Assembly: GCA_963575745.1 (NCBI GenBank)
Contig: CAUYUJ010019926.1
Span: 275,826 to 339,825 of the forward strand
Reading direction: 5' to 3'
Length of the DNA stretch: 64,000 bases
DNA from: Prorocentrum cordatum
Taxonomy: Eukaryota > Sar > Dinophyceae > Prorocentrales > Prorocentraceae
Position numbers and translations under genes: made by a program. Below are positions 45,463-63,837 of the stretch, piece after piece (the stretch's first letter is position 1; each line of letters begins with the position of its first letter). The notes under the pieces are model-generated. The model ran no database searches. It was given only the letters and a program-made list of their open reading frames with translations, and had not been told where the DNA came from.

Positions 45463-47920
45463 GGGGGGGCGGCTCCAGACCGGAAGCCGGGAATGGTGGC
45501 GGGATGGGCTGAGAGCCGAAAGGGTCGTCGCCCTAGGGGCTCGCGGAGATTCCGCCCCCGCGGCGCTGCCAGCGGAGTCTGGGCGGCCTTCCGGCCGGCC
45601 GGCCGAACAGTAGACGCGCGCGCGCACCTCGCGCTCAGACGCCCAGATTGCCCAAGATGGCCTCCGAAATGGCCGCGGCCCCCCCGCGAGGGCCCAAAAC
45701 TCCACGTCGAACGCGCGCGCAGGGGCCCTGAGCAGCCCCGGGGCCGCTTCAAAACTACACCGCCCGACCCCGTCAAAAAAATAGATTTTGCCCGTGGCCC
45801 CCGATGGGCAGTGCCATGAGCGCCCCCTATGTTATTCGGCGGTTTTCGCGCCCTCGCCCGCTCCATCGCCCCGAGACGGCCAGCGAGGGCTTCCGAACAA
45901 TTCAGGATTGCCCCAGGATTCCTACGAAACAGCACCGAGGCTTTTGACCGCCCAGCGGGCCCCCCAGATGGCCCGGGAAAGCCGCCCAAGGGCCCCGGGG
46001 GGCGCCGAGGCGCTTCCAAGACCGCCGCCCAGATGCACCCGCCCAAGCAGCTTTCCAACGCGCAGGGTGGCCCGACAGCACCGCGACGCCAGACGGCTCG
46101 AAACAATCCCGGCGCGGCCCAAACCCTTGAATGCATGCTCGTCGAAGGCCCCTCCGCAGCGCTCCCCTGGCGGCGCCCGCGCAGGCGCGGGGGCGACCCC
46201 CAAGCCGCGGCCCCCTACCCCGCTGAAATCTCGCCAGGCCCCTTCGCACCCCGCCGGAGCTTTGGAAATCTCCCGGGGCCTCGCGCCGCCTCCGACGCCG
46301 GTGAAGAACCCCCCCGCCCCTCCCCGCGTCTCCGAGCCGGCGCGGGGCAAATCGGCGACTCGGTCCCCGGCCGCTCTACGCCGCGAAGCAAGAACCACCG
46401 CTAGTCCGATCGCGCGCGACCCCCCCGCCGTCCACGCAGAAACGGAGAGGGGGGGAACGTGTCTGAGCAAGCGAAAGTGCCCAGCAACTGCCGGGCAAAG
46501 CCAGCCCGCTTACAACGCGAGCCGATTTTGACACATCTTCGCCCCCCTGCCAGTGCTGCTTGGGAAAATCACCCCCGAATGCGCCCGGAGGAGCCCCCGC
46601 TGTGGCCCAAAATGCCACGACACCTTCCGCGTCCTTCCAAAGCCCGCCGCTTCCCGCGGAACATATTTTCGAGCGTTCGGACGCGGGCCCCAACGCTCCG
46701 GCACCCTCCGGCAACCTCCGAAAAGCTCCCAAGCCAAACCCCCCATGCACCCTCAAAGCCCTGCTAGGCTTTCGACATTGCTCTTGACCTCTGAGCAATC
46801 CTCCCCAGCCCCCCCCCCGTTCCCCCAACCTCGCCGAGCGCCTTCCCGGGCCGCCTCCGTCTTCGAAAACCTTCCGAGCCCCTCCCGGGCCTTGCTCATA
46901 ATTATCTCGATGCCTTTTAGAAGCCGCCCAGGGCACGTCCGCGCGCTGGCGGCTGAGCCCCCCAGCCACGACCCGCAGCTTGGCTAGCGCGTTCCTTTTG
47001 TTGTTCTTGGAGACGCATGCGCACAGGGCCGACCGGGCAGCGTTCTGGGCCGACGCCGCGACATTGGCTTCGGCACGCCCAACCCGGACCATAATCGCAC
47101 TTATATGTGAGTTCGCGGTCAGACCTAAATCTGCTCGGGATCTCGAGTGATTCGGGCGCCATCACTTCGCGGCATGCCCGCAGGCCCTTTTGTTCGAGCT
47201 GCGTAGGAGGAAAAGAGCCCCAATATACGGGTTCCCCACGCATCCGCGTAATTTCCGCCATGGCAGCGGCGAGCGTGGTTCTGTGGTGAACTACCCTGTC
47301 CGTCCGCCACAAATTGATCTTCTATAAATTGCACTTCTGACATCTCAAGAGTTGACCTTACATGAGCAAGGCTAATTCGATCGAATTGCATTTGCAAGCT
47401 AAAACTTGCACTTCCGCCAACATAGCGACTGATTTTAAACTTACTGGAGTGAGGGGCCGAACGGTCTTAGACTGTCCCTGCGTGCGCGGCTGAGACAGGG
47501 TTCTGCTGTATCGGGGGTGCCTCGTTTTATTGGCCGCATGTTTAAGAGTGGCTCGTTTCCACGGTTCAACATGCATGCAATAAAACGAGACACCCAAAAA
47601 CCATTCCCCGAGCATCCAACACGGTCTAAACCCAAGAGAACGTTTACTCTTGACAGAACAAGAGATCCATCCAAGAATAGGAGAACGGCTTCTCGTGTAT
47701 TACCAGAGTGGCCAAAATGGCAACGGCGGAGAAAGGTGTAGGAGGACGACGACAACAGCGACGACGACATATAATCAGGAGAGGAAGAAGACCCAGGCCT
47801 TCCGATCCACTCGTCTGTTTCGGCTCGTTCTTTCCTCATCCCGACGGTGTGGATATTGCTGCTTCACGCGTAGAGCATGCGAGTCACATCTTGGCCATGC
47901 CCCCATGCCTCGCATATCAG
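45463..47920. other. no recognised gene; GC-rich then mixed sequence
   Basis: GC-rich sequence to about 46,990 has long open frames on both strands typical of GC bias. From 46,990 composition becomes more balanced. Minus frames near 47,125-47,400 could hold a short exon but show no known motif. GAGGGGCCGAACGGTCTTA near 47,447 is a solo copy of the sequence that starts the large element at about 47,925. Confidence 0.4.
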
Positions 47921-48633
47921 CGCGAGGGGGCCGAACGGTCTTACGCGGTCCATGAGCGCGCCTGCAGTGGGCTTCTGCGGCCCCAAAGTTCTGATATCGT
48001 TACCGTTGTTATTGCTGTTCGTCGCCATCGCCCCGCGACCCACCCGCGGACCCGCCCGCCTGCACATTTCCCCCCCAAAGGGTCCCCAACAGAAAAAAAC
48101 GAACAAAACTCATCGACCCGTCACGCGACCCACCTGCGACCCGTCGCGCGCGGCAGAATGGGGGCTTTTGAATCATCTCAGAAGATGGCCACACGATTTG
48201 GGGGACGAGGAATAGCAAGGGCTTGCTGCGAGAGCGACTGCTCCTGTAATTAATCCCCCAGACTTAATACCACCCGTTTTCGCCCACTTGATCGCCGCCC
48301 ACATCATCGCGCGGAGGGGTGGGGGGTTCTCAGGGGCATCTCGATCTTCGCTCGCGTCGTGGGGAAAAGCACGGAAGTCAGAGGTAAAGTTTTCGACCCC
48401 ATAGTTTGACCTCTGACTTTTTCGGCGGAGGGGGGCCCCTGCAGGCAAGGCCCACCTACCCATGGGTAGTTCCTCTCGCTCCCGTTCCTCCTCCGTTCCT
48501 CCTCCCCCTCCTCCTCCTCCTCCTCCTCCCATTTTCGCAGTCGCCCTCCTCATCACCTCTTTCCCAATTCGTGTTCGTCCTGGTCAGCCTCCGCCCCAAC
48601 TCCTCGCCCTCCTCACTCAATTCCCCGCTGGCC

Positions 48634-48659
48634 CAACTACTTATTTAAATAAGTAGTTG
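48634..48659. repeat. perfect 26-bp palindrome (left arm)
   Basis: CAACTACTTATTT is followed by its exact reverse complement with no spacer. The right arm has the same palindrome at 58,037-58,062. A weaker ACTACTCGTTTCT/AGAAATGAGTAGT stem follows directly. Confidence 0.95.
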
Positions 48660-48704
48660 ACTCAACTACTCGTTTCTCAAGAAATGAGTAGTCCAGCGTT
48701 TGGG

Positions 48705-49058
48705 CGAGCAATGTGACACCACATATGAGGAGTAAAACGCGTCTCAAATCCAACCTCCTTGTTGCACCATGCCGAGCACTCCATGCCCCTGGACCCCTTT
48801 TTGCAATGCAGGGAGCAGCAGAACACGGGTGGCCTGCATATGAGGAATAAAACGCGTCTCAAATGCAGCCTCCTCGGCATGGTGCAACAATGAGGTTGCA
48901 TTTGAGACGCGTTTTATTCCTCATATGCAGTGCCACCCGTGTTCTGCTGCTCCCTGCTTTGCAAAAGGGGTCCAGGGGCATGGAGTGCTCGGTATGGTGC
49001 AACAAGGAGGTTGCATTTGAGACGCGTTTTGTTCCTCATATGTTGTGTCACATTGGGC
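48705..49058. repeat. ~350-bp palindrome inside left arm
   Basis: The left half (CGAGCAATGTGACACCACAT onward) is mirrored by the right half (ending ATGTTGTGTCACATTGGGCG) about a centre near 48,880. Each half holds two direct copies of a block with ATGAGGAATAAAACGCGTCT and one block CTGCTGCTCCCTGC / GCAGGGAGCAGCAG. It therefore forms a long hairpin on its own. Confidence 0.9.
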
Positions 49059-49199
49059 GAGCGTCGTCGCCGGAATCACTCATCCCGCGATGTCGCCCAA
49101 GACAGTTATGTTTTGAGTATGGTTTCCTTTTCTGGGGCGTCTCGCAAAAAAAAAGGTGTCTCGTTTTCTTGGTCTCATATTTAAGGGCGTGAGCCGCTT

Positions 49200-51100
49200 C
49201 GGTTTGGTGGTAGCACAGTTTTATGCTAGGGGTGCGCGCTTCGTTTTTGCTCTACCTGGGTACTTCTATGTTGTAGCTAGTAATATTCCAATATTCCCAG
49301 GCTGGCTTGTTAATGTCTTCACACGCCACTTGCCCGTTGGGACAGCGGGGGTTTTGCCGAAAGGGTGTTTTGATTTCCGGAGGCAGTGGGACTGACCCTG
49401 TCTCGCCCTTGAGGCCCTCCCGGAGATTGATCCGGGAGGCGGGAATCAACCCACTTTTTCGGCAGAATATGGAGGAGGAGGAGCAGCATGATGATGAGGG
49501 GTATTGTGAGGAGTGACAAGGAAAGGTCGGGAGTTCGCACAACATTCTGGACAAATTCCCAGTAATGATTTGGTATTATCAGTTTCGCAGATTCTTCTTT
49601 TTTTTGAAGCAGGAAACGCTCGCAAATTTTCAAAAATGTGTTTCTGAGGCGTCTGCACATTGACGCCGCGAAACCACTTGTCACGCCCATGGGTTTAAGG
49701 TATCCGCTTCGCTTTGCGAGGCTGTTAGTTTTACCAGGCCTTGACTGGTGGAAACGTAAGCGCGCTCACGACGCACGGGCGGCACGCCGCGGGCACACCA
49801 CCAGCGCACCAGGCACACAAACGCACAGACACACACGCACACGCGGAGACATGCACGCGATTTGTACGAAGGGTCTGTGTGTTTTCCGTGTGCTGGTGGG
49901 GCGTATTCGGCAGACGAGGTTGGAGGAAAAACTTGTGATCTTCTTAAGCAAGAAACGCAAGTTTTCCTCCTCCACAGCGCTGGAGTGGCGTTGCGTGCCC
50001 GCGGCGCGCCAATGTGCCTGGCGTATTGGTTTGCCTGGAATGCTTGGGTATGCTTGGGTGTGCGTGATATGCCTGGTGTGCCCGGTGGTGTGCCCTGGTG
50101 TGCTTGGTGTTCCCTGGTGTGCACTGGTGTGCCTGGTGTGAATGGTGTGCTTGGAGCGCCTGGTGCGCCTGGTGGGCGAAAGGGGTGAGGATGAACGCAA
50201 TAATGTAATCTTACATTTTTGTTTTTCTCTGCGGTTCGAGGGAGGAGGAGTAAGGATGAGGGAAGCAACAGGAGAGGGAGAAATTGGCAGGAGGCAACGA
50301 GGAGCGATGCGTGGAACTAGCGACAAGAGTTAAGGGGGGAGTACAAACACAACAATGTATCTTTACAGTATTGCTTTTCTTTGCGGCTTACTGTGACTTT
50401 CCGGATTGAGTTAACTCAGTAATTTAATTGCACGGTGATCTTGTGTTTCAGTATTTGAACAACCCAGTAAGTCAACGATGCAGTAATGCAGTGAGGCAGT
50501 GATTCGTCCATCAAGGAATCCACTAGACCTCCGACCAATTCAACCTCCGACGAATTAAGTAATTCATTTACTGGATTGGTCAACCCATCCAAGACAAGTG
50601 GCAAGGCAACCTTCAACTTGAACCTTCAACTTGAACCTTCAACTTGACCCCCCGTGCGGGCTCACATGTTGTATTAAGTTGCTATTGGGCCCCTGAGAGT
50701 GCACCACACAGACACTAGGGACATCCGCTGTCTGCGTTCCTTCCTTCTTCCCATGCTTTCGTTTTCGCCGAAACCTTGACGAGTAGCAGTAAGGGTGAGT
50801 GAGGATGACGAGGAGGAGGAGGAGGGAGAGAGCAAGAGGAGGGAAGAAGATGGTGAGGGACAGCTCCGAGATGGCCTCCTTACTCCGCCCTCCAATCACA
50901 GGCAAGAGCGAGAACGTAAGTTTACATTCTTGCTTTCCTCATTCCTTCCACCCACCTGTCCCCTCCCCCGCGCCTCCGTCTTCCCTTCCCTCCTCCGTGC
51001 TTCTCATGCCTGCTCATGCTCCTTCCACCTACTCCAAACTTCAACTACTCCCCTCCTCCCCCCATCCAACCGTAAAGAGAAGCAAGACTGCACATGTACA
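49200..51100. other. left internal region of the transposon, no recognised gene
   Basis: Mixed sequence with a TGGTGTGCCTGG minisatellite (about 50,025-50,175), three tandem copies of CTTCAACTTGAAC (50,607-50,648) and short related motifs described separately. No long frame has a recognised motif. Confidence 0.5.
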
Positions 51101-51115
51101 TTACTTCTTTTTTGC
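50190..51115. repeat. possible subterminal repeats in both orientations
   Basis: Related segments of about 40 bases built on AAGAGAAGCAA plus TGTAA and TTACATT occur inverted at about 50,196-50,245 and 50,345-50,395, and direct at about 50,890-50,935 and 51,067-51,110. CACTA-type elements usually carry short subterminal repeats that their own proteins bind. That role here is an inference. Confidence 0.4.
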
Positions 51116-51507
51116 TACTTCGTTCGACCCCCCCATCTTGGGCTCAAAGTGGCCATCTTCTTGGTACCACCACTTGGGCAATATTGCGCCATCTTGGAGG
51201 CCATCTAGAACAGGAGCGGTCTTGAAGTCATTTTGGCATATAGTGGTGTGGTGCAGAGGCTATTCCCATGGGAAGCATGTAGTATGCCCTGGAAGCCCGC
51301 TTCCCTATACTGTTTCAGTGGGTCGTGGCCTTGCGAGCGCGGAAGTATTCGTTTCTAGGAAGGATCGCGGCCTCGGGAGCGCGGGTCCATAGTATTTCTT
51401 GTGTGCCACATGGCTCCACGAGGGGGGGGGGGGGGCGTTCGGGCGAAACTCTTGTACGGGATTCGGCACATATGATGATGATGCTGTTGCTGATGATGCT
51501 GCGTATA

Positions 51508-51532
51508 CCGCATGCCATTTTGGGCTCAAAAG
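51508..51532 (+). other. degenerate spliced-leader-like relic before gene A
   Basis: CCGCATGCCATTTTGGGCTC followed by AAAAG matches the dinoflagellate spliced-leader sequence, allowing single-base insertions. It ends 46 bases before the ATG at 51,579. A second, weaker match (CCATCTTGGGCTCAAAG) lies at 51,133-51,149. A relic leader would mean that this part of the gene passed through a trans-spliced mRNA and back into DNA. Confidence 0.45.
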
Positions 51533-51578
51533 GCTGGCTCCATGTTGATTTGATTCCGAACCTTCATAATCACCGGCC

Positions 51579-53036
51579 ATGGGAAGAAGCACCCAACAAT
51601 CTACGTTTACACCCGAACTAGTTCGCGACATTCTGTCAACACATATTCGAGGTTCGGCTGTAAAAAGATGCCAAGAGAATGGCAAGTTGATTGACTACAA
51701 ATTCAAGGCGGTTGGAAGGGGTAGCGACGACGAGGACAAAGAGAAAGAGCTCACAAACGAGACAGACAAAGACTGCCTGCAGAGGCATTGTGACTTATTG
51801 CGGGCAATGTTCAAGTACACAAAGATCTTCAACAAAGACACGCTCGAGGCAGGCGTCAAACTATACAGCAATGAAAAGGTCGGCGGCATTGTCAAGGACC
51901 CCAAGGCAGAGGCATACGCGATCAAACGTATGCAGATTGACATCCAGAGGATCAGAGGGAATTGCAGGACAGGCTCACGTTTGCAGTCCTGGCTTCTTGG
52001 CCTCGTCCAAGCCTACGGGGAAGCGCCGACAACGCTCAGTCCATCGCCCTCGCCGCCGCCTGCTGGCCGAACCACCCCAGGCTCAACAGCTAAAGGCTCG
52101 CTCAGCGGATCGAGCATGAAACAGGCCACGAAGTCGTTGATTCGGGAGTGTGATAGCGATTCAGAGGAGGACGACACGGTGGACTGCGACGAGGGCGATT
52201 GCGCGGTCCTAGGTGCGGTTCGCAAGCATGGCGACGACCACGCGAAAAGCTCCGGACACGGAGCTAAGCAACCACCCCTGCATGCTGACGGCGCCGACAA
52301 TATGGGTGCATCTTTCCAGCCTGTGTTCTACTGGGATCATGCCCAAAGTACCGGTATGGCTACGTTGCAGGACGGGAGCGCACAGAAAGCTGACGCTGTG
52401 TATTGCGACGCACTCTCGGGCATGGTCGCGTGCGAGTTCCTGTTCGACGAGCGGGAGGGCAGCACGAAGTGGGTCACAGAGATCCCGTGGTTGGATTATT
52501 TGCCACGCTCAGGTTTGCACCTGCGTTGCGTTGGTCTGCGATTGGCGATGGCTGGCCCCAGTGTCCCAGGGCCCCAGGACACATTGGATACCCCCAAACA
52601 CGAGGACAATTGCATTGCCCAAAGAAACGGCCACTCCACACGAAACGGCCCTCGAGGCCACGCGGGCGGGGCCCCGCCAGACCAGGGCAAAATCGCAGCC
52701 CCTTGATTTCGGTGACTAGTGGGAGGGGCGAGTGGGGATGCCAGCCATCGCCATGCGCAGCGCATCAACGCAGTGGCAAACGGGGAAGGTGGCGCAGCCT
52801 CGAGGACTGCAACACTCCGGAGGCCCGCGGCAGCGAGGGCAACAACTCTTCGGAGGCCAGCAGCATCGTCCGTTCTTCGGAGGCCAGCTGCCACCTCGCG
52901 CCAGTGGACGGTCAAGACGATCACGAGGGGCGGCGCGGATCGCAAGAGGGGCCAGACATACAATATATGGACGTCGCCTGGCGGAGTCTCATACAGGTCG
53001 CTGAAGAATGCAGTGGCGAATGGGTTTAGGCCGTAG
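51579..53036 (+). CDS. two-exon gene A: MBD-like DNA-binding protein of the transposon
   Basis: The first open frame starts at 51,579 and the last part, in the same frame, ends at TAG 53,034-53,036. Joining 51,579-52,512 to 52,774-53,036 removes an in-frame stop at 52,704 and gives about 398 residues. The N-terminal 160 residues are charged and look helical. A Ser/Pro-rich linker and an acidic stretch (CDSDSEEDDTVDCDEGDC) follow, then a region I do not recognise (FQPVFYWDHAQ..WVTEIPWLDYLP). The C-terminus has RRPAA repeats and about 40 residues with W.VKTITRGG, GQTYNIWTSPGGVSYRSL and KNAV. This closely follows the methyl-CpG-binding-domain pattern (W, K/R-rich loop, Y, SP.G, F/YRS). I infer that it binds element DNA or chromatin. 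The MBD-like tail is more certain than the splice model. Confidence 0.6.
52513..52773 (+). other. proposed intron in gene A
   Basis: Starts GTTTGC after CTCAG and ends AACGCAG. Its 261 bases are a multiple of three, and removal skips the TGA at 52,704-52,706 and joins the frame to the MBD-like end. Other AG sites nearby break the frame. Confidence 0.45.
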
Positions 53037-53502
53037 GGTTCAGTAGGCGCCAGAGTACGCGTCCTTGCTGTGTAGATCTCAGCTCGCGTTTGCATGTCTC
53101 AATCACGCTACGACTCATTGATATGTGGACACTTGCGCTGCTATGGAGTTCCTGGCGGCTTCTGTGAGAAACGTGCATCGGTCTCCTCCTCTCCCCCTCC
53201 CCCCACCGTCCCTCCTCCCTCCTCCCAGGGCGCAGTCGGCGCCTGAAACTATCTGAAACTTTGTAGTTTCAGACAGCGCTTTCCGCGATGAGAAACATTG
53301 GTTTTCATTGACAGTTCCATACAAAATGCACATTTGTAACATGCAGCGTTGAAGTTTCAGATCTGAAACTCTTCTGAAACTCTGGCCCTCGGGATCCCGC
53401 ACGGCGTCTCGGCGACCCCGCTGCGGCCTTCCGCGCAGCCTTTTCGCCCCGAGCTGGCGCGTTCAGGTTTCCTACACTCCATACCTGCGCTGGCCACCGA
53501 GC

Positions 53503-54752
53503 ATGGCAAAGCAGGTGCCTCGCAAGACCCCCCAGAGCGCAAAGATGAGGAGGCCGGCTGCAGCTTCGGCGACGGCAGTGGTGCCGCACGAGAAGACCGA
53601 CGCAGAGAAGAAGGGTTTGGACCGCCTGGCCGATCTAAAGCCAGGGCAACCCCTGGGGCAGGCAGGGGCGCAAGCAGTCACGGACCACTTGAAGCGCTTG
53701 GCCAAGGACGGTTGGGAGTTCCCCCTCCAGGAGTGGAAGAACACCAAGAGCTACGAGGCGAAACGTTCCTTGGCCGTCAAGCTGGCGCTGGACAGGGCCG
53801 GGTCATTTTTCAAGCAGATCGAAGAGCAGTCCCTGACGAGTCGGAGCCAGAAGGCGATCAAGAGCGGATGGCTCCACATCTGGGAAGTCGCTGACTTGGA
53901 GAAGTTCCCGTACAACCCAGAGAACGAGGCGACGATGCAGAAGCTGTACGACTTCGTGGAGGGCTGCCCCACCAGGGCTTCTGAAAAGCCTGCTTTGGCC
54001 AAGAAGGGCGAGCTGCAGTACGACTACTCGAAGAGGATGGTGGACAACCACGTATCCGAGCGCAGGAAGGCTATCACCGTCAAGGGCACGAAGGACAAGG
54101 TCGACGCTGGAGAGGTCAACGACTCGATCGCTCTCATGGACGACGTCTTCGTCGAGCAGCCCGTCCACAAGAAAGCGAAGAAGGCGAAGGTCCCCAAGGC
54201 GATCGAGGACGAGAAGCCCGAAGACAAGAAGCTGCGCGAGGCTGGGGATTGCGTTGAACTGCGCCGCTGTGGCCCTGCTTTCTCGGAGTGCTCAGGGGGC
54301 TCGGCTTGGTTCCGGCCGCGCGCGCTGGAACGAAGCTTCTGCCTGGGCTCATCCTGGGAATGCGGTGTCGCAGATGCGTGGCCGACGCCATCTCGCAGGC
54401 AACGGCGGAGAAGGCGAAATGGATTTCGTCTTACACGTCGCTGAAGACCAAGGTCGGAAAACAGACCGACTTGGCGGAGAAGCTGCAGGCGAAGTACGAT
54501 TTGTTGAAGGACAGAAAGAAAGGCACTCTCGTCACGGCGAAGCTCGTGACCCAGATGTGGTCGCAGTTGTCTACACTGCAGGCCAAGAAGGGCAAGATGG
54601 CGCGCTTCATCGAGGATACCAGCGCCGTGGACCCCCTCAAGTGGGCCAAGAACAAAGCGAAATACGACAAAGAGTTCAAGGATTGCGAGTCTGCCCTGGA
54701 CACCTTCACCGAGGGGGCCGTGTCCCTCGTGCAGAAGGGGTTGACCAATTGA
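53503..54752 (+). CDS. two-exon gene B: lysine-rich helical protein, function unknown
   Basis: Exon 1 is 53,503-54,240 and exon 2 is 54,399-54,752; joined they give 363 residues. The start MAKQVPRKTPQS is the first ATG of the frame and is followed by a dinoflagellate-style RRPAAASA segment. The protein is rich in Lys and Glu and looks largely helical. A compact region at residues 50-180 has WEFPLQEWKN, SGWLHIWEVADLE and YDFVEGCPT. A basic stretch KKAKKAKVPK at about residue 226 could direct it to the nucleus. Residues from about 247 (ATAEKAKWISSYTSLKTKVG) are probably coiled-coil. I recognise no known family. Codon use (G/C third positions) and the precise intron say it is a real gene. Its place between the MBD-like gene and the transposase suggests an accessory role, but it could also be a captured host gene. 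Confidence 0.7.
54241..54398 (+). other. 158-bp GC-AG intron in gene B
   Basis: Begins GCTGGGG after CGCGAG and ends CTCGCAG before GCAACGG, so AGGC is repeated at both borders. This is the pattern described for dinoflagellate introns. Its length is 2 modulo 3, and removal joins the two open frames exactly between codons (KKLREA | TAEKAK region). Confidence 0.75.
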
Positions 54753-54825
54753 GCGGGCTCGGCGCGCGCTGACTGCCGTGGGAGGCGGGCGAGAGACAGA
54801 GACAGAGACAGGAAGGCAGACAAGG

Positions 54826-54834
<9 letters not shown>

Positions 54835-54890
<56 letters not shown>
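54835..54890. repeat. GA microsatellite
   Basis: Pure GA run of about 55 bases in the spacer between gene B and the transposase gene. Confidence 0.95.
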
Positions 54891-54892
<2 letters not shown>

Positions 54893-55132
54893 GTCGCATC
54901 CTGTTCAGGGTCGGGCTCGGGGCGCGTGCCATGGGCATGCTCGCAACCATCCTATTGGCTTTTTTGTTTGGAGGGGGGCGCCGGCGGCGCGTCTGATTGC
55001 GTGACTGGGTAAATGTGAGCGCGTGCCTGCCAGATTCGAGAGGGGGCCCCTCCGCTCCTGTTTCTGCTTGTATTCCTTATAACAATCGTCGCAGCGCGTG
55101 CCTCTGGCAACTGTCGCCCATTCAGCTTTCGC

Positions 55133-55153
55133 CCATAGCCGTTTTGGCTCGAG
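55133..55153 (+). other. spliced-leader relic at the 5' end of the transposase gene
   Basis: Eighteen of 21 bases match the 3' 21 bases of the dinoflagellate spliced leader, with differences at three positions (CCATAGCC, then GTTTTGGCTCGAG). It ends 17 bases before the ATG at 55,171, as expected for a leader added to an mRNA and later copied back into DNA. Finding such a match by chance in a window this size is unlikely (expected well below one). Confidence 0.75.
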
Positions 55154-55170
55154 CCTGCATTGCGGATCGC

Positions 55171-57039
55171 ATGTATCCCGGGACTGGGCACAAACAGCGA
55201 GCCGCGCGCACAGCCGATGGGCCATATGGCAAGCACTCGTGCGACACCAGATGCAGGCCAACGGGGGGCTCAAAGCAACATGTCATGGACGCCCGCGCCG
55301 TCGCAATTGCTCGACCATCCAGCGCGGCAACTACGCCCGCCAGCAGCTCGGCCCCCAGCGATGCGGACATCAGCGATTACAGATCCCATTTGAGTCGGCT
55401 CTTCCTACGCAACAAAATGTCTGCCCTGGATGCCCAGCTCCTGGCTTCGAAGTCGAGTCAAGCTGGGGCCAGAGGAGTCGATGATTTTGCAAGGGTTGGT
55501 TCCCGTGGAGCCGAGCCAAAGAATATGTGTCGGGACATGCTGAGGGCGTGCTTGAAAGGAACAGACATGCCCGACTTGTATTGGGCGAAAGTACCGTGCT
55601 GCAACCCCAAGACGGGCATCAAAAGAGAGGATGTGTGGATGCCATTTCTCCTTCCTCACGAGCTGCTACATCTGCTAGTGCAGAAGGCTGGGGAATCGTG
55701 GGGCGACCTCTGCTCCGTGCCTTCAGGGCTCGAAGCGCTGCGAGCCGAGGTCACGCGCGGGGCGCCGCATCTGTCGGGCGGGCACTTGATTTGCATCGGC
55801 TTCCACGGCGATGGAGTGCCCCATCAACGACGTAAAACAGTCGAGGTATATAGTTGGAATATGTTGGCTTTCCCATCGTCGGAGCGTTTTCTTTTCGCAA
55901 TGGTTGAAAAAGAATTCATGTGTGGATGCGGGTGCAAGGGGCGATGCACAATAGATGGCATTCTCGACATATTTTTGTGGAGTCTCCGGTGCTTGTACAT
56001 GGGCCGATTTCCTACCTCGCGGCACGACTCGTTGGAGTGGCTACCGTCAGACAAGAGCCGGGCGAAACTGAAGCATGGCAGAGATTTTGGATTCCATTCA
56101 ATATTGTTGCAGATCCGAGGAGATTGGCAATTCTACAAGACGATATTTGGATTCAGCGGCTGGGCATCCAAATCAATTTGTTGGCTCTGCGGGGCCACGC
56201 AGCCAGATGGCGATAAGCCGTACAACGATTTCAGCATCCAAGCAGCGTGGAGAAAATGCAGACACAACGTGCGCGATATGCTTAGCATCCTCAGCAATTC
56301 AGGGGTCCCTTTGAGCCCCCTCTTCGGGGCGCCGTGCTTCCACGCGATCATGATAACAATTGATGTCCTACATTGCTTGGATCTGGGCGTCTCTCAAGAT
56401 ATACTTGGGAATTTGTTCTGGGAGGCTATCGCATCGAAAGGTTTCTTCTCAGAGACGACGCAGGAAAAACGAGTGGACCAGTTGCTCCTTCTCGTCAAGG
56501 AGCATTACAAAGAGTGCCGCACTCCTGTTCGCGTGAATGGTTTGACTCTGGAGATGATTAAAAGGCAATCAAAATCACCCAAATTTCGCGCGAAGGGGGC
56601 GGAGACTCGATACATGGTTCCATTCGGATTGTGCTTGGCAGAGAAGATGCACGAGTTCCATGGCACCGTCCATTCGCTCACTGTGCTGGAAATGTTGAGG
56701 TGCTTGTTTCTTTTCTACACGATAATGGGCAATGATGTATACGATGCTGATCGTGCAGCAAGCTCGTGTCGAAAGTGTCTGCTGCTCTATAAATCACTCT
56801 CTTCCGAAGCCAAGAACAAAGTTTTTTGGAAGTGCAAACCAAAAATGCACATGTGGCAGGAGATGGCAGAATACATGGGGACAGTAATCGGCAACCCTCG
56901 GCTCTTCTGGGCATACAAAGACGAAGATTTCGTCGGTTTCATCAGCGAGCTAGCCCATTCGAGAGGCGGTGGTGGCATGAGTAGCACTGTCCCTAGAGTT
57001 GCAATTACGAGGTACAGGGCCCTGGGAGGGGCCACATGA
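55171..57039 (+). CDS. gene C: DDE transposase, CACTA/Plavaka-like
   Basis: The open frame runs from 54,997, but the spliced-leader relic at 55,133-55,153 argues that translation starts at the ATG at 55,171, giving 622 residues. Family signs, numbered from that start: FHGDGVPH with a candidate first catalytic Asp near residue 214; YSWNML; then IRGDWQFYKTIFGFSGWASK with the second Asp near 318, followed by CWLC, the Cys-x2-Cys seen after the second Asp in this group; then IDVLHCLDLGVS; and near the end KPKMHMW and FWAYKDEDF with a candidate Glu near 585. This order matches CACTA/EnSpm and Plavaka transposases. It would cut at the inverted arms and rejoin the element in the nucleus. The frame is uninterrupted and has no intron, consistent with descent from a processed mRNA. 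The assignment rests on motif order and not on a search. Confidence 0.75.
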   Translation: MYPGTGHKQRAARTADGPYGKHSCDTRCRPTGGSKQHVMDARAVAIARPSSAATTPASSSAPSDADISDYRSHLSRLFLRNKMSALDAQLLASKSSQAGARGVDDFARVGSRGAEPKNMCRDMLRACLKGTDMPDLYWAKVPCCNPKTGIKREDVWMPFLLPHELLHLLVQKAGESWGDLCSVPSGLEALRAEVTRGAPHLSGGHLICIGFHGDGVPHQRRKTVEVYSWNMLAFPSSERFLFAMVEKEFMCGCGCKGRCTIDGILDIFLWSLRCLYMGRFPTSRHDSLEWLPSDKSRAKLKHGRDFGFHSILLQIRGDWQFYKTIFGFSGWASKSICWLCGATQPDGDKPYNDFSIQAAWRKCRHNVRDMLSILSNSGVPLSPLFGAPCFHAIMITIDVLHCLDLGVSQDILGNLFWEAIASKGFFSETTQEKRVDQLLLLVKEHYKECRTPVRVNGLTLEMIKRQSKSPKFRAKGAETRYMVPFGLCLAEKMHEFHGTVHSLTVLEMLRCLFLFYTIMGNDVYDADRAASSCRKCLLLYKSLSSEAKNKVFWKCKPKMHMWQEMAEYMGTVIGNPRLFWAYKDEDFVGFISELAHSRGGGGMSSTVPRVAITRYRALGGAT

Positions 57040-57475
57040 TGAAAAAAAACATCATCGCATCATCATCGCCATCGTCATCATCACTATCCACCGCCTTATC
57101 TGTACATCCCAAGACACGGCAATGGACATGAGGGGGCGTGGGCGGCGACACACAGAGCGAACTGGCTGCGACGGGCTGCGAGCTACGATCCCCCAGCCTT
57201 CAATCCCAGCGCCACTAGGCCACGAGGGGTACGGACGGCGATACCCTGCTGCAGGCCACGAGAGGGGCAGGCTTCGGGCACCAGCCACGAGCCCGCCAGA
57301 CGAACGTCAAGCGCAGGTCTCCGCTTGACAGGGCAATGTGTAAGCTCATGTAAAACCTTTCGGTTGCGGATACGAGTGAAGGGCGGGTTGGCCTCGATTC
57401 CGCGGCGTCTCGAAAACCGCCGCTTTCGAAGCGGCTGCAATCAAAGCAGACCGCGTTTTCGAAATTCCCGTCTCG
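57040..57475. other. right internal spacer of the transposon
   Basis: Starts with a short CATCATCG microsatellite right after the transposase stop. No gene is recognised. Confidence 0.5.
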
Positions 57476-57635
57476 AAATTAAGCGGCTCGATTTCAGAAT
57501 TCGAGACGCCCTTAAATATGAGAAGAAGAAAACGAGACACCTTTTTTTTGCGAGACGCCCCAGAAAAGGAAACCATACTCAAAACATAACTGTCTTGGGC
57601 GACATCGCGGGATGAGTGATTCCGGCGACGACGCT

Positions 57636-57995
57636 CGCCCAATGTGACACAACATATGAGGAACAAAACGCGTCTCAAATGCAACTTCCTTGTTGCACCA
57701 TACCGAGCACTCCATGCCCCTGGACCCCTTTTGCAAAGCAGGGAGCAGCAGAACACGGGTGGCACTGCATATGAGGAATAAAACGCGTCTCAAATGCAAC
57801 CTCATTGTTGCACCATGCCGAGGAGGCTGCATTTGAGACGCGTTTTATTCCTCATATGCAGGGCCACCCGTGTTCTGCTGCTCCCTGCATTGCAAAAAGG
57901 GGTCCAGGGGCATGGAGTGCTCGGCATGGTGCAACAAGGAGGTTGCATTTGAGACGCGTTTTACTCCTCATATGTGGTGTCACATTGCTCGCCCA
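57636..57995. repeat. ~350-bp palindrome inside right arm
   Basis: Mirror image of the palindrome in the left arm, centred near 57,815. The element as a whole therefore carries four alternating half-palindromes. Confidence 0.9.
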
Positions 57996-58036
57996 AACGC
58001 TGGACTACTCATTTCTTGAGAAACGAGTAGTTGAGT

Positions 58037-58062
58037 CAACTACTTATTTAAATAAGTAGTTG
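58037..58062. repeat. perfect 26-bp palindrome (right arm)
   Basis: Same sequence as at 48,634-48,659. Confidence 0.95.
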
Positions 58063-59002
58063 GGCCAGCGGGGAATTGAGTGAGGAGGGCGAGGAGTTGG
58101 GGCGGAGGCTGACCAGGACGAACACGAATTGGGAAAGAGGTGATGAGGAGGGCGACTGCGAAAATGGGAGGAGGAGGAGGAGGGGGAGGAGGAACGGAGG
58201 AGGAACGGGAGCGAGAGGAACTACCCATGGGTAGGTGGGCCTTGCCTGCAGGGGCCCCCCTCCGCCGAAAAAGTCAAAGGTCAAACTATGGGGTCGAAAA
58301 CTTTACCTCTGACTTCCGTGCGTTTCCCCACGACGCGAAGATCAAAGCGCCCCTGAGAACCCCCCACCCTCCGCGCGATGATGGTGATTACAGCGATGTG
58401 GGCGGCGATCAAGTGGGCAAAAACGGGCAGTCGCTCTCAATTCCTCGTTCCCCTAACACGTAATTGTTTTTTCATGCTTTGCGCAATCGAATAAAATTAC
58501 GTTGTGGTCATCTTCTGAGATGGCTCAAAAGTCCCCCAAATCTACCGCGTTCGAAAGGTCGCGGGGCGGGGCGATAAATCTGGTTCGTTGGCTTCTATCG
58601 GGGCCCCATGTGGGGTACGTCGCCGGCGGGCGGGTCGCTGGGCGGGCCGCGAGCGGGGCGCGACGGATCGTAGGACGACGACGAGCAAAAATAACAACAC
58701 TGACCCCAAATGGAACAAACCCTTATGACGTGGCCAACGAAGCCGCAATTCAGCCGCTCGCGGCGGTCGCGGGGCGTGTCGATAAGATAGCGCCTTGGAT
58801 TTCTATCGAGGTCTCCTGCGAGGCGGGGCGCGGGCGGGCGGGGCGCTGGGCGGGTCGCGCGTGCATTGCGGCGGGGCGCGGGGCGAGGATCGCGAATACC
58901 AGTGACAACAACGACAAAATTAAACACCGCATCACTGAAGCCAGACGCGCACCCAGGGACAGTGTAAAGACGTTCGGCCTCGTCAACCAGATCTCTTATC
59001 TC

Positions 59003-59165
59003 TAGGTTTAAGGGTGGTGATGCACGCATAGGAGATGATCTCCAAAAAATAACAGCGGCGCTCCTAAATTTAACCGATCTCACTTAAATAACAAGATATA
59101 GGCAACAATAACAAGAGATTTCTCCTAAAAGCTGCTCTTAAATGCTTCGCACCACTTAGATCTAG
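59003..59165. mobile_element. MITE-like element between the two larger elements
   Basis: The left end (CTAGGTTTAAGGGTGGTGAT) and the reverse complement of the right end (CTAGATCTAAGTGGTGCGAA) are related, as are the inner AGGAGA pieces. The whole is about 160 bases with no coding capacity. It may instead belong to the outer edge of the large element. Confidence 0.45.
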
Positions 59166-59632
59166 ACTATTCGGCTGCTTCCAGCCGCAGCGGATGGTCG
59201 GGGTTGCCAGTAATATCGTTCGGCCAATCACTCTGCTGGTTCGAATTTGGTTTGCGCGCAAGTGCATTGTTACGATGTCAAAGTGGCATGACTGGCAATA
59301 CTGTCAAAAAACAATGCTTCAAGTGCAAGAAATGCACTGTCTCAGCGAGGGCTTTTCCGACGACATGGTTTCGTGCTTTTGCCGGCTAGATTTTCTGAAC
59401 GCCGGGCTGAAAACTAGATTGCGGTCTAGAAAACTGAACTGCTAGGAGGTGGTTTTGCACTTGCCGGGCATCCGTGGCACCAAACAGCCCGCTTTCGCCA
59501 CCAATCCGGCTACTTCCAACACTTCCGGCGAAGAAACAAAACTTCCACCCGATAAACAACACTTGCAGACGCAATCGGATGATCTGGGTACGCAGATCAG
59601 ATCCACGGGAAGAATGAGGACGCGCGCTGCCC
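59166..59632. other. region upstream of copia gag; LTR not identified
   Basis: The 5' LTR and primer-binding site of the retroelement should lie here or nearby, but without the 3' LTR (outside the window) neither can be delimited. No gene is recognised. Confidence 0.4.
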
Positions 59633-60560: not shown

Positions 60561-63500
60561 CGCCCCCGAAGGCAGCCGCAGTCCAGCAGGCCCCTGCGGG
60601 CGCTGAGGGCCAGAGGGCCGTGGGCGCGGTGGCCGCGGGCTCCGACGGCGACGAGGTCGCCTGGGTCTTTAGAGCCAGGAGCTCGGTCGGAGGCTGCCGC
60701 TGGGAGGAGCGCAGAGGGCTCATCCTCGCAGACAGTGGCAGCGACGAGCACCTCTGCGGCCAGGCGTTCGGAGCGCAGCATCCGACAGTTCAGGAGGACC
60801 CCACAGCGCCCAAGCTCCGCGAGCTGAGGCGCGAGGAGATGAGGCGTCTGGCGGAGACGGGGCAGGTGCTGGAACCGACCACATTCCTCCCCGACATCCG
60901 CGAGCCGACGCCAGAGGAGAGACGGCGCCACGAGGAGAACCAGCACTGCCCACCGCGGCGCTGGTGCGAGCACTGTCAGATGGGACGTGGGCGGGACAGG
61001 CCCCGCGAGCTGTTGGACGCGGAGGTGGAACGCCCCCCCGCGATCGGCCTCGACCTGGCGTTCTTCAGGGGCGAGGCGGTCGGCGCCGTGGAGGCGGGCC
61101 CCCGCGACGAGGACGGCCAGAGACAGGGCGAGGAGGTGGTGCTGGTGGTCGCGGATGCCGACGCGGGTGCCATGCCCCGAAGCCTGACCGACGCGCTGAT
61201 CCCTACACGGTGGCAGCCACGGTGGTGTTCATCAAGGGCCTTTTCCATCAGAAGGTCATCTGGAGGCCAGACTACGAGGACGTCATGATGGACCTGGCCA
61301 ACAAGGTCGAGGTAGAGCTGCCCAACCGCGTGGTCGTGAGACCCGCCCCTGCGTTCAGCTCCCACTCGAACCCCTCCGAGAATGCCAATGGCGTCATCCA
61401 GGCGCAGTTCCGCGCGAGCAGGGGCGCGCTGGAGGCACGGCTGGGAGCCAGGGTCCGACCGGGCACGGCCATGTACAAGTGGTTGCAGCGCCACGAGGAC
61501 TGGGCATGCACCAACCTGAGGATCAAGGCGAGCGGTCGCGCAGCACATGAGGACCTCTACGGCCACGCCTACACCAGGGAGATGGCCACCCCAGGGGAGT
61601 CCGTCCTGGCGCGCCTACCCAGGGGCAAGAATCGCAGGGCGAGAGGCAAGGTGTACCACAAGGGTGACATGGGCTTAGCGAGGGCAGTCTGGCTAGGGAG
61701 GAGCAGCGACACTGACGAGCACATCTGCGCCCTCGAGACGGGCGAGCTAGTCGCGACGAGGACCGTCAAGAGGCCGCCGGAAGAGCGGAGGTTCAACCGC
61801 ACCGCCGTGGCGGCGATCGCGCACATGCCATGGCAACGCCGAGGGCAGGGCGCGGTCCCGCGCGGGATCGAGCCGATCGTTGCGCCCCCTGCCGCTGCGG
61901 ACGTCGACCTGGCGGCGCAAGAGGCAGCTGAGGCACGGCCGGGCCCGAACACTGCTGCCCAGTCCACTGGGGCCGCCCACGGCGGCGGGCCAGCATCCCA
62001 GACGGGCGCGCCCATGGCGGCGCCCTCGGCTGATGCGTCGGGCGACGCCGAGGCGCCTGCTGGAGACAGGCAGGCGGGACCAGCGGCGCAGACGTCGGCT
62101 GGAGGCGGCGCTGGGGGCGACGCCCCCATGGCGCCGATGGCTGCAGCGCCAGCGAGTGCGCCTCCGCTGACGCCCCCGATAGGTCGATCGCCGAAGCGAT
62201 CCGCGGAAGAGGGTGACAATCGAGGCGCCCTTGCGAGGTCCCGAGTTAGCGGGGTAGCAGCTGAGCGCTGTGATGACGTTCGGCCTGACTTCCTGCGGAT
62301 CCTCAGGGGCATGGATGTCCCTGGTCCCCACGCTGCGTCGGGCTCGCAGTTGATCGAGGCCTCCACCAAGCGGGCCCTCGACGGCCTGGAGCAGCACGGG
62401 GTGGGCAAGCTCGCCAGACGGAGCGAGGCCGCCGGCAAGGGGGGCAGCGCCCGCTGGGACCACGTCTACAAGTGTGGCGCGAACCTCGGATGCAGGATCG
62501 CTAAGTCAAGGTACGTCGCGCGAGAGTTCAAGTGGCAGGAGTGCCGCGACGACCTCTTCGCGCCAGGGAGCAGCATGGCCGACAGCCGAGTTGTGGACTA
62601 TGTGGCCCTGAAGCACGGATGGCCCACCTTCACCGTGGACGCGGAGGACGCGTGCTACCATGTCCCCGAGGAGGAGGGCGCGCGGGTCGAGTGCCCACCC
62701 GAAGTCCTGGAAGAGTGCCGCGCGAAGGGCGACGCTGAGGGCTACGTCTGGCAGCTCGCGAAGCAGTTGCCAGGGCGGCGTGCTGGAGGGAAGCGCTGGG
62801 TCGAGTTCGCCGCGGACCAGCTCATGGCCAGGGGCTTCGAGCGGTCACCGACCGCGCCCCAGTTCTTCTGGCGCGCCGAGCCCCCATGTCTGGTGGAGCT
62901 ACGCATGGACGGCATGCACGGCACAGCGCCTGGAGTTGCAGGGTCCGGCTTCGTGCTGGACCTGGGCCGTGACATCAAGGTGAAGTGGTCAGGCCTGCAG
63001 GGCGACGATGCCGACTACGGGTTTCTCGAGGGGCGGCGCGTGCGAGAGGCCGACGCCACTTGCTTTCAGCCCAGCGAGAAGTACCTCGCGAAGGTGCTGG
63101 AGGCGCTAGGCCTTGCGGCGGGCAGCCCGCGCGCCACCCCAGGGGTGGAGGCGCGCAGGACAGGCGGGGATGACACGCCTGACCTCAGCCCAGACGAGGC
63201 TAAGCTGTTCAGGAGCGTGACCATGTGCCTGCTGTTCTACTTGCGCGACCGTGAGGATGCTCAGTTCGACATGAACTACCTGGCTTCGTGCATTTCATCG
63301 CCCCGCGAGGCGGACATTCGAGCCCTCAAGAGGCCGGCAAGGTACCTGGAGGGCACGAGGGACCTGGGCGCGCGGATGGCCAAGCCCAACACGTCGCGTG
63401 ACATCGTCGACCTGGTCGCGTGGACAGACTCCGACTGGGTGGGCGACGCGAAGGGTCGGAAGAGCCAGACCAGCGTGCACATCACCGCGCGCGGGTGTCC

Positions 63501-63837
63501 GATGTTCGGGATCAGCTGTCGTCAAGACGCGCAGTCCCTCGGCAGCTGCGAAGCCGAGTGGCGCGCTGGAGATCGAGGTCTCAGCGAAGGACTTGAGCTG
63601 AAGGCGCTCTTCGCGTTCATTGGCCACAGGGCGCGCATGAGCTGACGATGCGACAACTCGAGCGCGAGAGCGCTGGCGAGGCGCCAGGGCACAGGACGGA
63701 TCAAGCACCTTGCCACCAAGACGCCCTGGATTCAGCAGTTGGTGGTCAAGAAGGTCATCACCATCGAGCCTGTAGCTGGCGACGACAACCTTGCGGACCT
63801 CGGCGCAAAGGCGTTGCCGATGACGCGCCTCGAGTGA
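60561..63837 (+). pseudogene. pol: copia pol (protease, integrase, RT, RNase H), broken
   Basis: Protease: LILADSGSDEHLCG near 60,719, with the catalytic DSG. Integrase: HEENQH with CEHC near 60,929-60,976 forms the zinc site, then IGLDLAFF near 61,045 with the first Asp. The frame then breaks between about 61,160 and 61,200 and resumes at DPYTVAATVVFIKG. The integrase Glu region reads NANGVIQAQ near 61,381, apparently with Gln in place of Glu. RT: TVDAEDACYHV near 62,635 keeps the first Asp, but the YVDD-equivalent reads RMDGMHG near 62,902, so one catalytic Asp is Gly. RNase H: AWTDSDWVGDAKGRKSQT near 63,418. An in-frame TGA at 63,643 cuts off the last 64 codons (DNSSARALARRQG to NLADLGAKAL). 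This copy is inactive but fairly young, since most of the frame survives. Confidence 0.9.

Follow-up and report, generated by a model that had tools for sequence, protein, structure and literature searches.

The 64,000-nucleotide stretch of the Prorocentrum cordatum genome analysed here (C19077:275826-339825, hereafter the window) contains a 12.3-kb mobile element in which an 8.3-kb interior carrying three genes occurs in either of two orientations between the same outer ends, as seen by comparing 11 copies from one genome. The element, whose copy in the window is called W, is in our judgement likely to be a cut-and-paste DNA transposon of the CMCT kind in which homologous recombination between two internal inverted arms turns the interior around. 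Its architecture is as follows.

47294 to 59588, plus strand: the mobile element, 12,295 bp, delimited by the alignment borders of 10 other copies and by a 2-bp target duplication.
47292 to 47293 and 59589 to 59590, no strand: left and right copies of the target site duplication TA, from flank comparison.
47294 to 48272, plus strand: non-flipping outer left segment; from about 47925 inward it continues the arm in diverged form (copy alignment).
48273 to 49190, plus strand: left internal inverted arm (blastn against 58427-57506).
49191 to 57505, plus strand: invertible interior, 8.3 kb with three genes, in orientation A in 4/11 copies and B in 7/11.
57506 to 58427, minus strand: right internal inverted arm (blastn against the left arm).
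58428 to 59588, plus strand: outer right segment, which does not flip (copy alignment).

The copies were gathered by searching the genome assembly (4,128,499,153 bases in 21,875 contigs) with the left arm. The search recovered 11 full-length copies of the arm, all of them facing an inverted partner some 10 kb distant, as well as a single arm on a twelfth contig, C13288; C13288, like C16513, is known from hit coordinates alone. Similarity among the 10 other full copies and W spans 47294 to 59588 and stops abruptly on both sides. An initial annotation of the window had placed an inverted-repeat DNA transposon of about 11 kb at 47925-58985, bounded by its arms; a large DNA transposon is indeed present, but its bounds lie elsewhere, and the arms were ruled out as the element ends because alignment of the copies extends about 1 kb beyond them on either side. 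The ends themselves are short, imperfect and of CCC type (CCCTGTCCGTCCG... on the left and, in reverse complement, CCCAGATCATCCG... on the right). The alignment of copies proposed in that annotation fixed these ends and revealed a 2-bp target duplication in 9/11 copies, W included, with varying sequence (TA, CC, CT, CT, GT, TG, AA, GG and AG); in C314 and C15044 the right ends are altered and no target duplication matches.

Relative to the outer ends, orientation A is found in W, C314, C16693 and C15137, and orientation B in C3797, C18190, C18289, C14101, C20765, C15044 and C16775, so both interior orientations stand between the same outer ends, which is the pattern that defines inversion between terminal inverted repeats (TIR-TIR inversion). 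When read on the plus strand, the seven B copies give the impression that the interior has been swapped for other cargo, a possibility ruled out by the minus strand, on which the same interior appears inverted. C13288 also reads as orientation A from its hit coordinates. In a tree of the 11 copies built with IQ-TREE on the interior and outer parts, with the arms excluded and C13288, C16513, C18148 and C16374 left out, well-supported branches force at least three changes of orientation. Orientation A as a single clade is rejected (approximately unbiased test, p-AU 1.4e-54), and the scatter of orientations matches that of shuffled labels (213/500 shuffles as low for A and 236/500 for B). Separate transpositions of the inner part, by excision and reinsertion in the same place, are an extremely improbable source of the two orientations: at least three re-insertions at an identical point would be required, for which no support was found, and it would be left unexplained why the inner arm variants move with the interior while the outer ones stay.

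The two states could also have arisen during assembly, if a hybrid assembler had set the interiors either way between repeats of 0.9 kb with 98-99% identity. The assembly does mix Illumina and PacBio reads (as described in PMC10666404), and the arms are near identical both within and between copies. We nevertheless consider this quite improbable. The inner and outer trees both hold the clade C14101-C15044-C314 (0.998 in both) and both split off C15137, C16693, C18289 and C20765 (0.997 and 0.958), and the interiors therefore sit with their own ends. A B-type junction, in which the interior end adjoins the left terminus as in B, is found in C18148, an incomplete older relative at 86-88% DNA identity that is not confusable with these copies, and only about 2 kb must be spanned to connect unique flank to interior. 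Both junctions also agree in 11/11 copies, whereas random joining would be expected to leave some copies with one and the same interior end at both arms.

The two arms of W, near identical as the initial annotation had described them, match at 95.8% over 934 alignment columns (48273-49190 against 58427-57506, blastn), with 11 mismatches and the remainder gaps, and fade outward to a 68.5% match over 162 columns, near 47925/58985. Their likeness had been taken as a sign of recent activity, an argument that fails because recombination keeps the arms alike, while the homologous sequence immediately flanking them has only about 68% identity. The near identity of the arms is thus no clock of element age, and the case warns against taking arm identity as age; recency is better judged from the mean identity between copies, which is 99.1% for the interior and 98.7% and 98.6% for the outer parts.

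Variants in the arms place the exchange within an interval of about 0.5 kb.

48352 to 48870 (mirror about 57825-58338), no strand: exchange interval, set by markers up to 48351 that track the outer ends and by variants from 48870 inward that track the interior.

Across the block 48281-48351, alleles track the outer side in 22/22 arms at most columns; at four sites there they do so in 21/22, the exception being the left arm of C20765, whose right-type alleles are probably a short conversion tract. Variants at 48870, 48950, 48976 and 49105 that mark the clade of C15137 and C16693 (orientation A) and C18289 and C20765 (orientation B), on the other hand, stay with the same interior end in all four copies, which places the exchange between 48352 and 48870. 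Within a copy, the two arms mismatch at 3-8 of 70-76 positions in 48271-48351, 0-4 of 253-343 in 48352-48700, 0-2 of about 170 in 48701-48869 and 1-9 of 308-324 in 48870-49190. Private variants are found in both arms of single copies (48628 in W; 48779, 48848 and an insertion at 49147 in C3797; a deletion at 49189 in C18190), and a variant at 48577 occurs in both arms of C14101 and also in one arm of C15044. Since private variants are common to both arms of one copy, sequence has passed between arms.

Inside the exchange interval, each arm carries a perfect 26-bp palindrome, located by a palindrome search of the window.

48634 to 48659, no strand: palindrome CAACTACTTATTTAAATAAGTAGTTG, left arm.
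58037 to 58062, no strand: the same palindrome, right arm.

Besides AT-type repeats, these two sites are the only palindromes of at least 20 bp in the window. The 4.13-Gb assembly holds 23 exact sites, compared with 0 for the reversed control, and of these the 11 copies account for 19 (out of 22 arms), C13288 for one, C16374 for two and C2980 for one, the last two being relatives described below. The palindrome also sits at the heart of the longest stretch of identity (38 bp, 48634-48671) between the left arm of W and the right arm of C16374, whose alignment is 42% identical with gaps counted. It may be a binding site or a break point. About 190 extra bases lie at the palindrome in the right arm of C3797, near window position 58041, and short deletions beside it occur in other copies too, as if the site were fragile.

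The location of the palindrome within the exchange interval, its position at the core of the longest run between otherwise divergent arms, and its exact occurrence in 19/22 arms with no control site anywhere in the assembly would all suit a dedicated site-specific inversion, in which the palindrome would serve an element or host recombinase, or a hairpin nuclease, as the repeats of the 2-micron plasmid serve FLP. In that yeast plasmid, two unique regions are parted by inverted repeats that recombine through FLP/FRT to give two isomers, and the flip is thought to turn one replicating copy into many. The arms of W would then be a purpose-built inversion module, with a dedicated enzyme acting on the palindrome by cutting or recombination; the product of ORF1 or the lysine-rich (Lys-rich) protein of the interior might be that enzyme. 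Such a module might flip the gene block to switch expression or turn one replicating copy into many, and would make the element a eukaryotic nuclear transposon with its own system of segment inversion. We regard both the dedicated inversion and a module of this kind as unlikely. The 2-micron plasmid has a known recombinase, whereas none was recognised by Pfam or NCBIfam among the element proteins tested; private variants on either side of the palindrome that are common to both arms of one copy call for conversion; 3/22 arms are without the exact site, yet their copies occur in one or the other orientation; and the exchange points are mapped to about 0.5 kb at the finest. The conversion seen on either side of the palindrome and the lack of a recognised recombinase lead us to rank homologous recombination far above a dedicated recombinase.

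Nested in both arms is also a palindromic insert of roughly 350 bp (48709-49055 and 57640-57987), flanked by a direct repeat TTGGGCGAGC spotted by eye, which is perhaps a small hairpin transposon that entered an arm before the copies spread. An Rfam scan of the W element returned no family at gathering score and six weak matches, five of them on arm hairpins.

The same architecture recurs in a relative at C16374:146613-160078, which is 13,466 bp long, has CCC-type ends and a TG duplication, and carries arms of about 1 kb that are 77% alike. Its transposase is 41-42% identical to that of W and has one internal stop, its Lys-rich protein aligns with a local score of 160 (maximum 62 of 300 shuffles), and the N-terminal part of ORF1 recurs in it with a local alignment score of 79 (maximum 62 in 300 shuffles). 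At C2980:532417-534498 lies a 2.1-kb derivative of the C16374 type (93.7-95.0%), without interior and with one palindrome and a CA duplication, which is possibly a non-autonomous form. The ends read CCC..GGG in W, C16374 and C2980.

A separate family of about 20 kb (C13355:209.7-230.7k, C20999, C4180, C20710 and C14689) has terminal inverted repeats of about 1 kb, with the ends AAGGACTCTTCTT, that have a core in common with the W arms at their very ends. Duplications of 4 bp were found at 5/5 loci examined, the border having been moved by one or two bases at three of the five to give the same AAGG start. C13355, the only member examined along its length, showed nothing related to the three W genes at E up to 1e-3, in a comparison that disregards the ORF1 last-exon and Lys-rich second-exon queries. 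Arms of all three families, namely those of W, of C16374 and of the 20-kb elements, share a conserved block around AAGTCAGAGG...ACCTYTGACTT...GGCGG...GGGGGGCCC...GGCAAGGCCC.

The arms may have had a nested origin, in which they were once the ends of an element with long terminal inverted repeats that landed in a shorter, CCC-ended element, the two moving as one ever since. We hold this to be possible but doubtful. The arm core does lie at the very ends of the otherwise unrelated 20-kb family, and the weak continuation of the W arms stops near 47925/58985, about as far outside the common core as in that family; inspection by eye, however, revealed no recognisable target duplication at 47925/58985, and the arms and outer CCC-type ends are already together in C16374 and its derivative C2980. 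A nested origin would moreover account for where the arms came from and not for the flips.

The interior encodes three proteins on one strand, as first annotated, in the following frames.

51579 to 52538, plus strand: first exon of ORF1, its 3' border assumed; frame intact in 9/11 copies.
52758 to 53033, plus strand: likely last exon of ORF1, with a presumed splicing join, the stretch initially called 'MBD-like'; open in 11/11 copies.
53503 to 54752, plus strand: gene for the Lys-rich helical protein, 363 amino acids, with exons 53503-54240 and 54399-54752 and a putative intron, from the frames.
55285 to 57039, plus strand: DDE transposase, 584 amino acids, with D176, D280, C299-C302, H522 and E547 (14-sequence alignment); no stop in 9/11 copies.

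The gene set travels together. ORF1 and the other two genes are present in 11/11 aligned interiors, the transposase and Lys-rich genes also occur at the twelfth copy (C13288), and the absence of other copies with the same genes within the same arms, which would have told against the original proposal, is thus contradicted by all 10 other full copies. The Lys-rich frame is intact in 8/11 copies, one of these with an in-frame deletion, and all three genes are open in 6/11, that copy counted.

The assignment of the transposase as CACTA/Plavaka-like is borne out by conserved residues in an alignment of W, 12 distant relatives and the first open part of C16374 (418 amino acids), all from this genome. 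D176, D280 and C299 are conserved in 14/14 sequences, C302 in 13/14 and E547 in 13/13, with D360 and H363 likewise invariant or nearly so; H522 is present in 12/13, and position 526 is His in 12/13 but Glu in W itself. As outlined in PMC12730594, the CMCT group unites EnSpm/CACTA, Plavaka, Mirage, Chapaev, Transib and ESTA, its transposases have the residue order D, D, C(2)C, H(3-4)H, E, and its target duplications are 2-5 bp (2 bp in PlavakaA), with CA..TG ends in most cases. The W transposase resembles this group in having D, D and, between the second Asp and the Glu, C(2)C in the same order, and the element does so in its 2-bp duplications, which are those of PlavakaA and fall within the 2-5 bp range. 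It departs from the group in its CCC..GGG rather than CA..TG ends, in the Glu that replaces the second His of H(3)H, and in its internal inverted arms, flipping interior and two companion genes without known relatives; its ends also differ from the TGT..ACA and CATCA..TGATG of Plavaka proper. Membership in CMCT rests on residues and duplications, since no known transposase family was matched in Pfam or NCBIfam by W, nor in Pfam by three distant relatives. The transposase family is large in this genome (6,012 first-look candidates, 75 of them scored), and nothing in IMG/VR matched the transposase patterns. A single-sequence AlphaFold model of the transposase reached a mean pLDDT of 35.5, and no argument here draws on it.

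None of the proteins tested gave a significant Pfam or NCBIfam match. The label 'MBD-like' could not be upheld, as the last exon of ORF1 matched 0 Pfam families at E up to 10 and no NCBIfam family, and five weak PDB matches included no MBD chain. A search with the first 245 residues of the Lys-rich protein gave 17 genome matches from 93 candidates, all scored; they lie at the 12 copies of the W family, C16513, C18148 and C16374, and nowhere outside the family and its relatives.

The favoured mechanism accommodates the observed ends, duplications, two isomers, repeated flips, bounded exchange interval and transfer between arms. The transposase of the element would mobilise the 12.3-kb unit through its short CCC-type ends, an action suggested by the ends, duplications, copies and catalytic residues, while the 0.9-kb inverted arms, about 1 kb inside each end, would recombine with each other. 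Exchange between the arms would turn the three-gene interior of 8.3 kb around, and their likeness would be maintained by conversion. The flipping would presumably be carried out by host homologous recombination, perhaps begun by breaks at the conserved palindrome, and may be incidental to arms that are retained for a different role, for instance in protein binding or replication.

Several observations weigh against this reading. Mean identity is 98.26% for arms of the same copy and 98.18% for left against right arms of different copies, and since same-copy arms are barely more alike than different-copy arms, conversion since insertion appears modest. In the arm tree, arms cluster according to side (0.989), which is due to the unconverted outer block. 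The flip itself needs no conversion, which leaves room for site-specific recombination, and both the orientations and transposition are read from assembled sequence. Selection on the genes is weak, from few changes: crude polymorphism ratios of nonsynonymous to synonymous change (dN/dS) are 0.47 for the Lys-rich gene, 0.63 for the transposase and 1.06 and 0.77 for the ORF1 exons, with a non-coding control at 1.0.

Among known systems, a close parallel is offered by the insertion sequence ISWpi1 in Wolbachia (PMC3004938), where recombination between the inverted repeats of one transposon likewise inverts what lies between them; there it concerns 2 of 22 loci and the repeats are the element's own ends, whereas in the W family the two states occupy 4 and 7 of 11 copies, the repeats are internal and the ends stay put. 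Inversion by recombination between a DNA transposon's own repeats is to be expected but had, according to the same source, "barely been documented" as of 2010. Galileo and other Foldback-like elements (PMC4168063) share with the W family long inverted repeats on a DNA transposon, but as treated there the repeats are terminal, the transposase is of the P superfamily, and chromosomal inversions occur between copies rather than flips within a copy. Methylation-pathway cargo is carried by DNMT-carrying retrotransposons of Symbiodinium (PMC5890265) and TET/JBP-carrying transposons of fungi (PMC12730594), whereas no methylation-related domain was confirmed in the W element. The kind of transposase is already known, as is, in principle, inversion by recombination between transposon repeats (PMC3004938). 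New within the literature covered are arms that lie inside the element and are distinct from its ends, the commonness of both states in a single genome, a palindrome in the exchange interval that is specific to the family, and two companion genes that have no known relatives. The open-licence PMC literature, with limited coverage, yielded no report describing the W element, nor any of a dinoflagellate transposon with flip isomers. With both states frequent in one genome and markers bracketing the exchange, its rate, site and consequences should be directly measurable by long reads.

Just to the right of the element, at 60964-63645, an 893-amino-acid frame with a weak match to the reverse transcriptase family RVT_2 (E 5.4e-6, below the Pfam cut-off) is probably a copia-like retrotransposon. 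Large direct-repeat arrays occupy 14.4-19.9k, 25.3-26.0k, 35.3-36.4k and 40.4-43.0k of the window.

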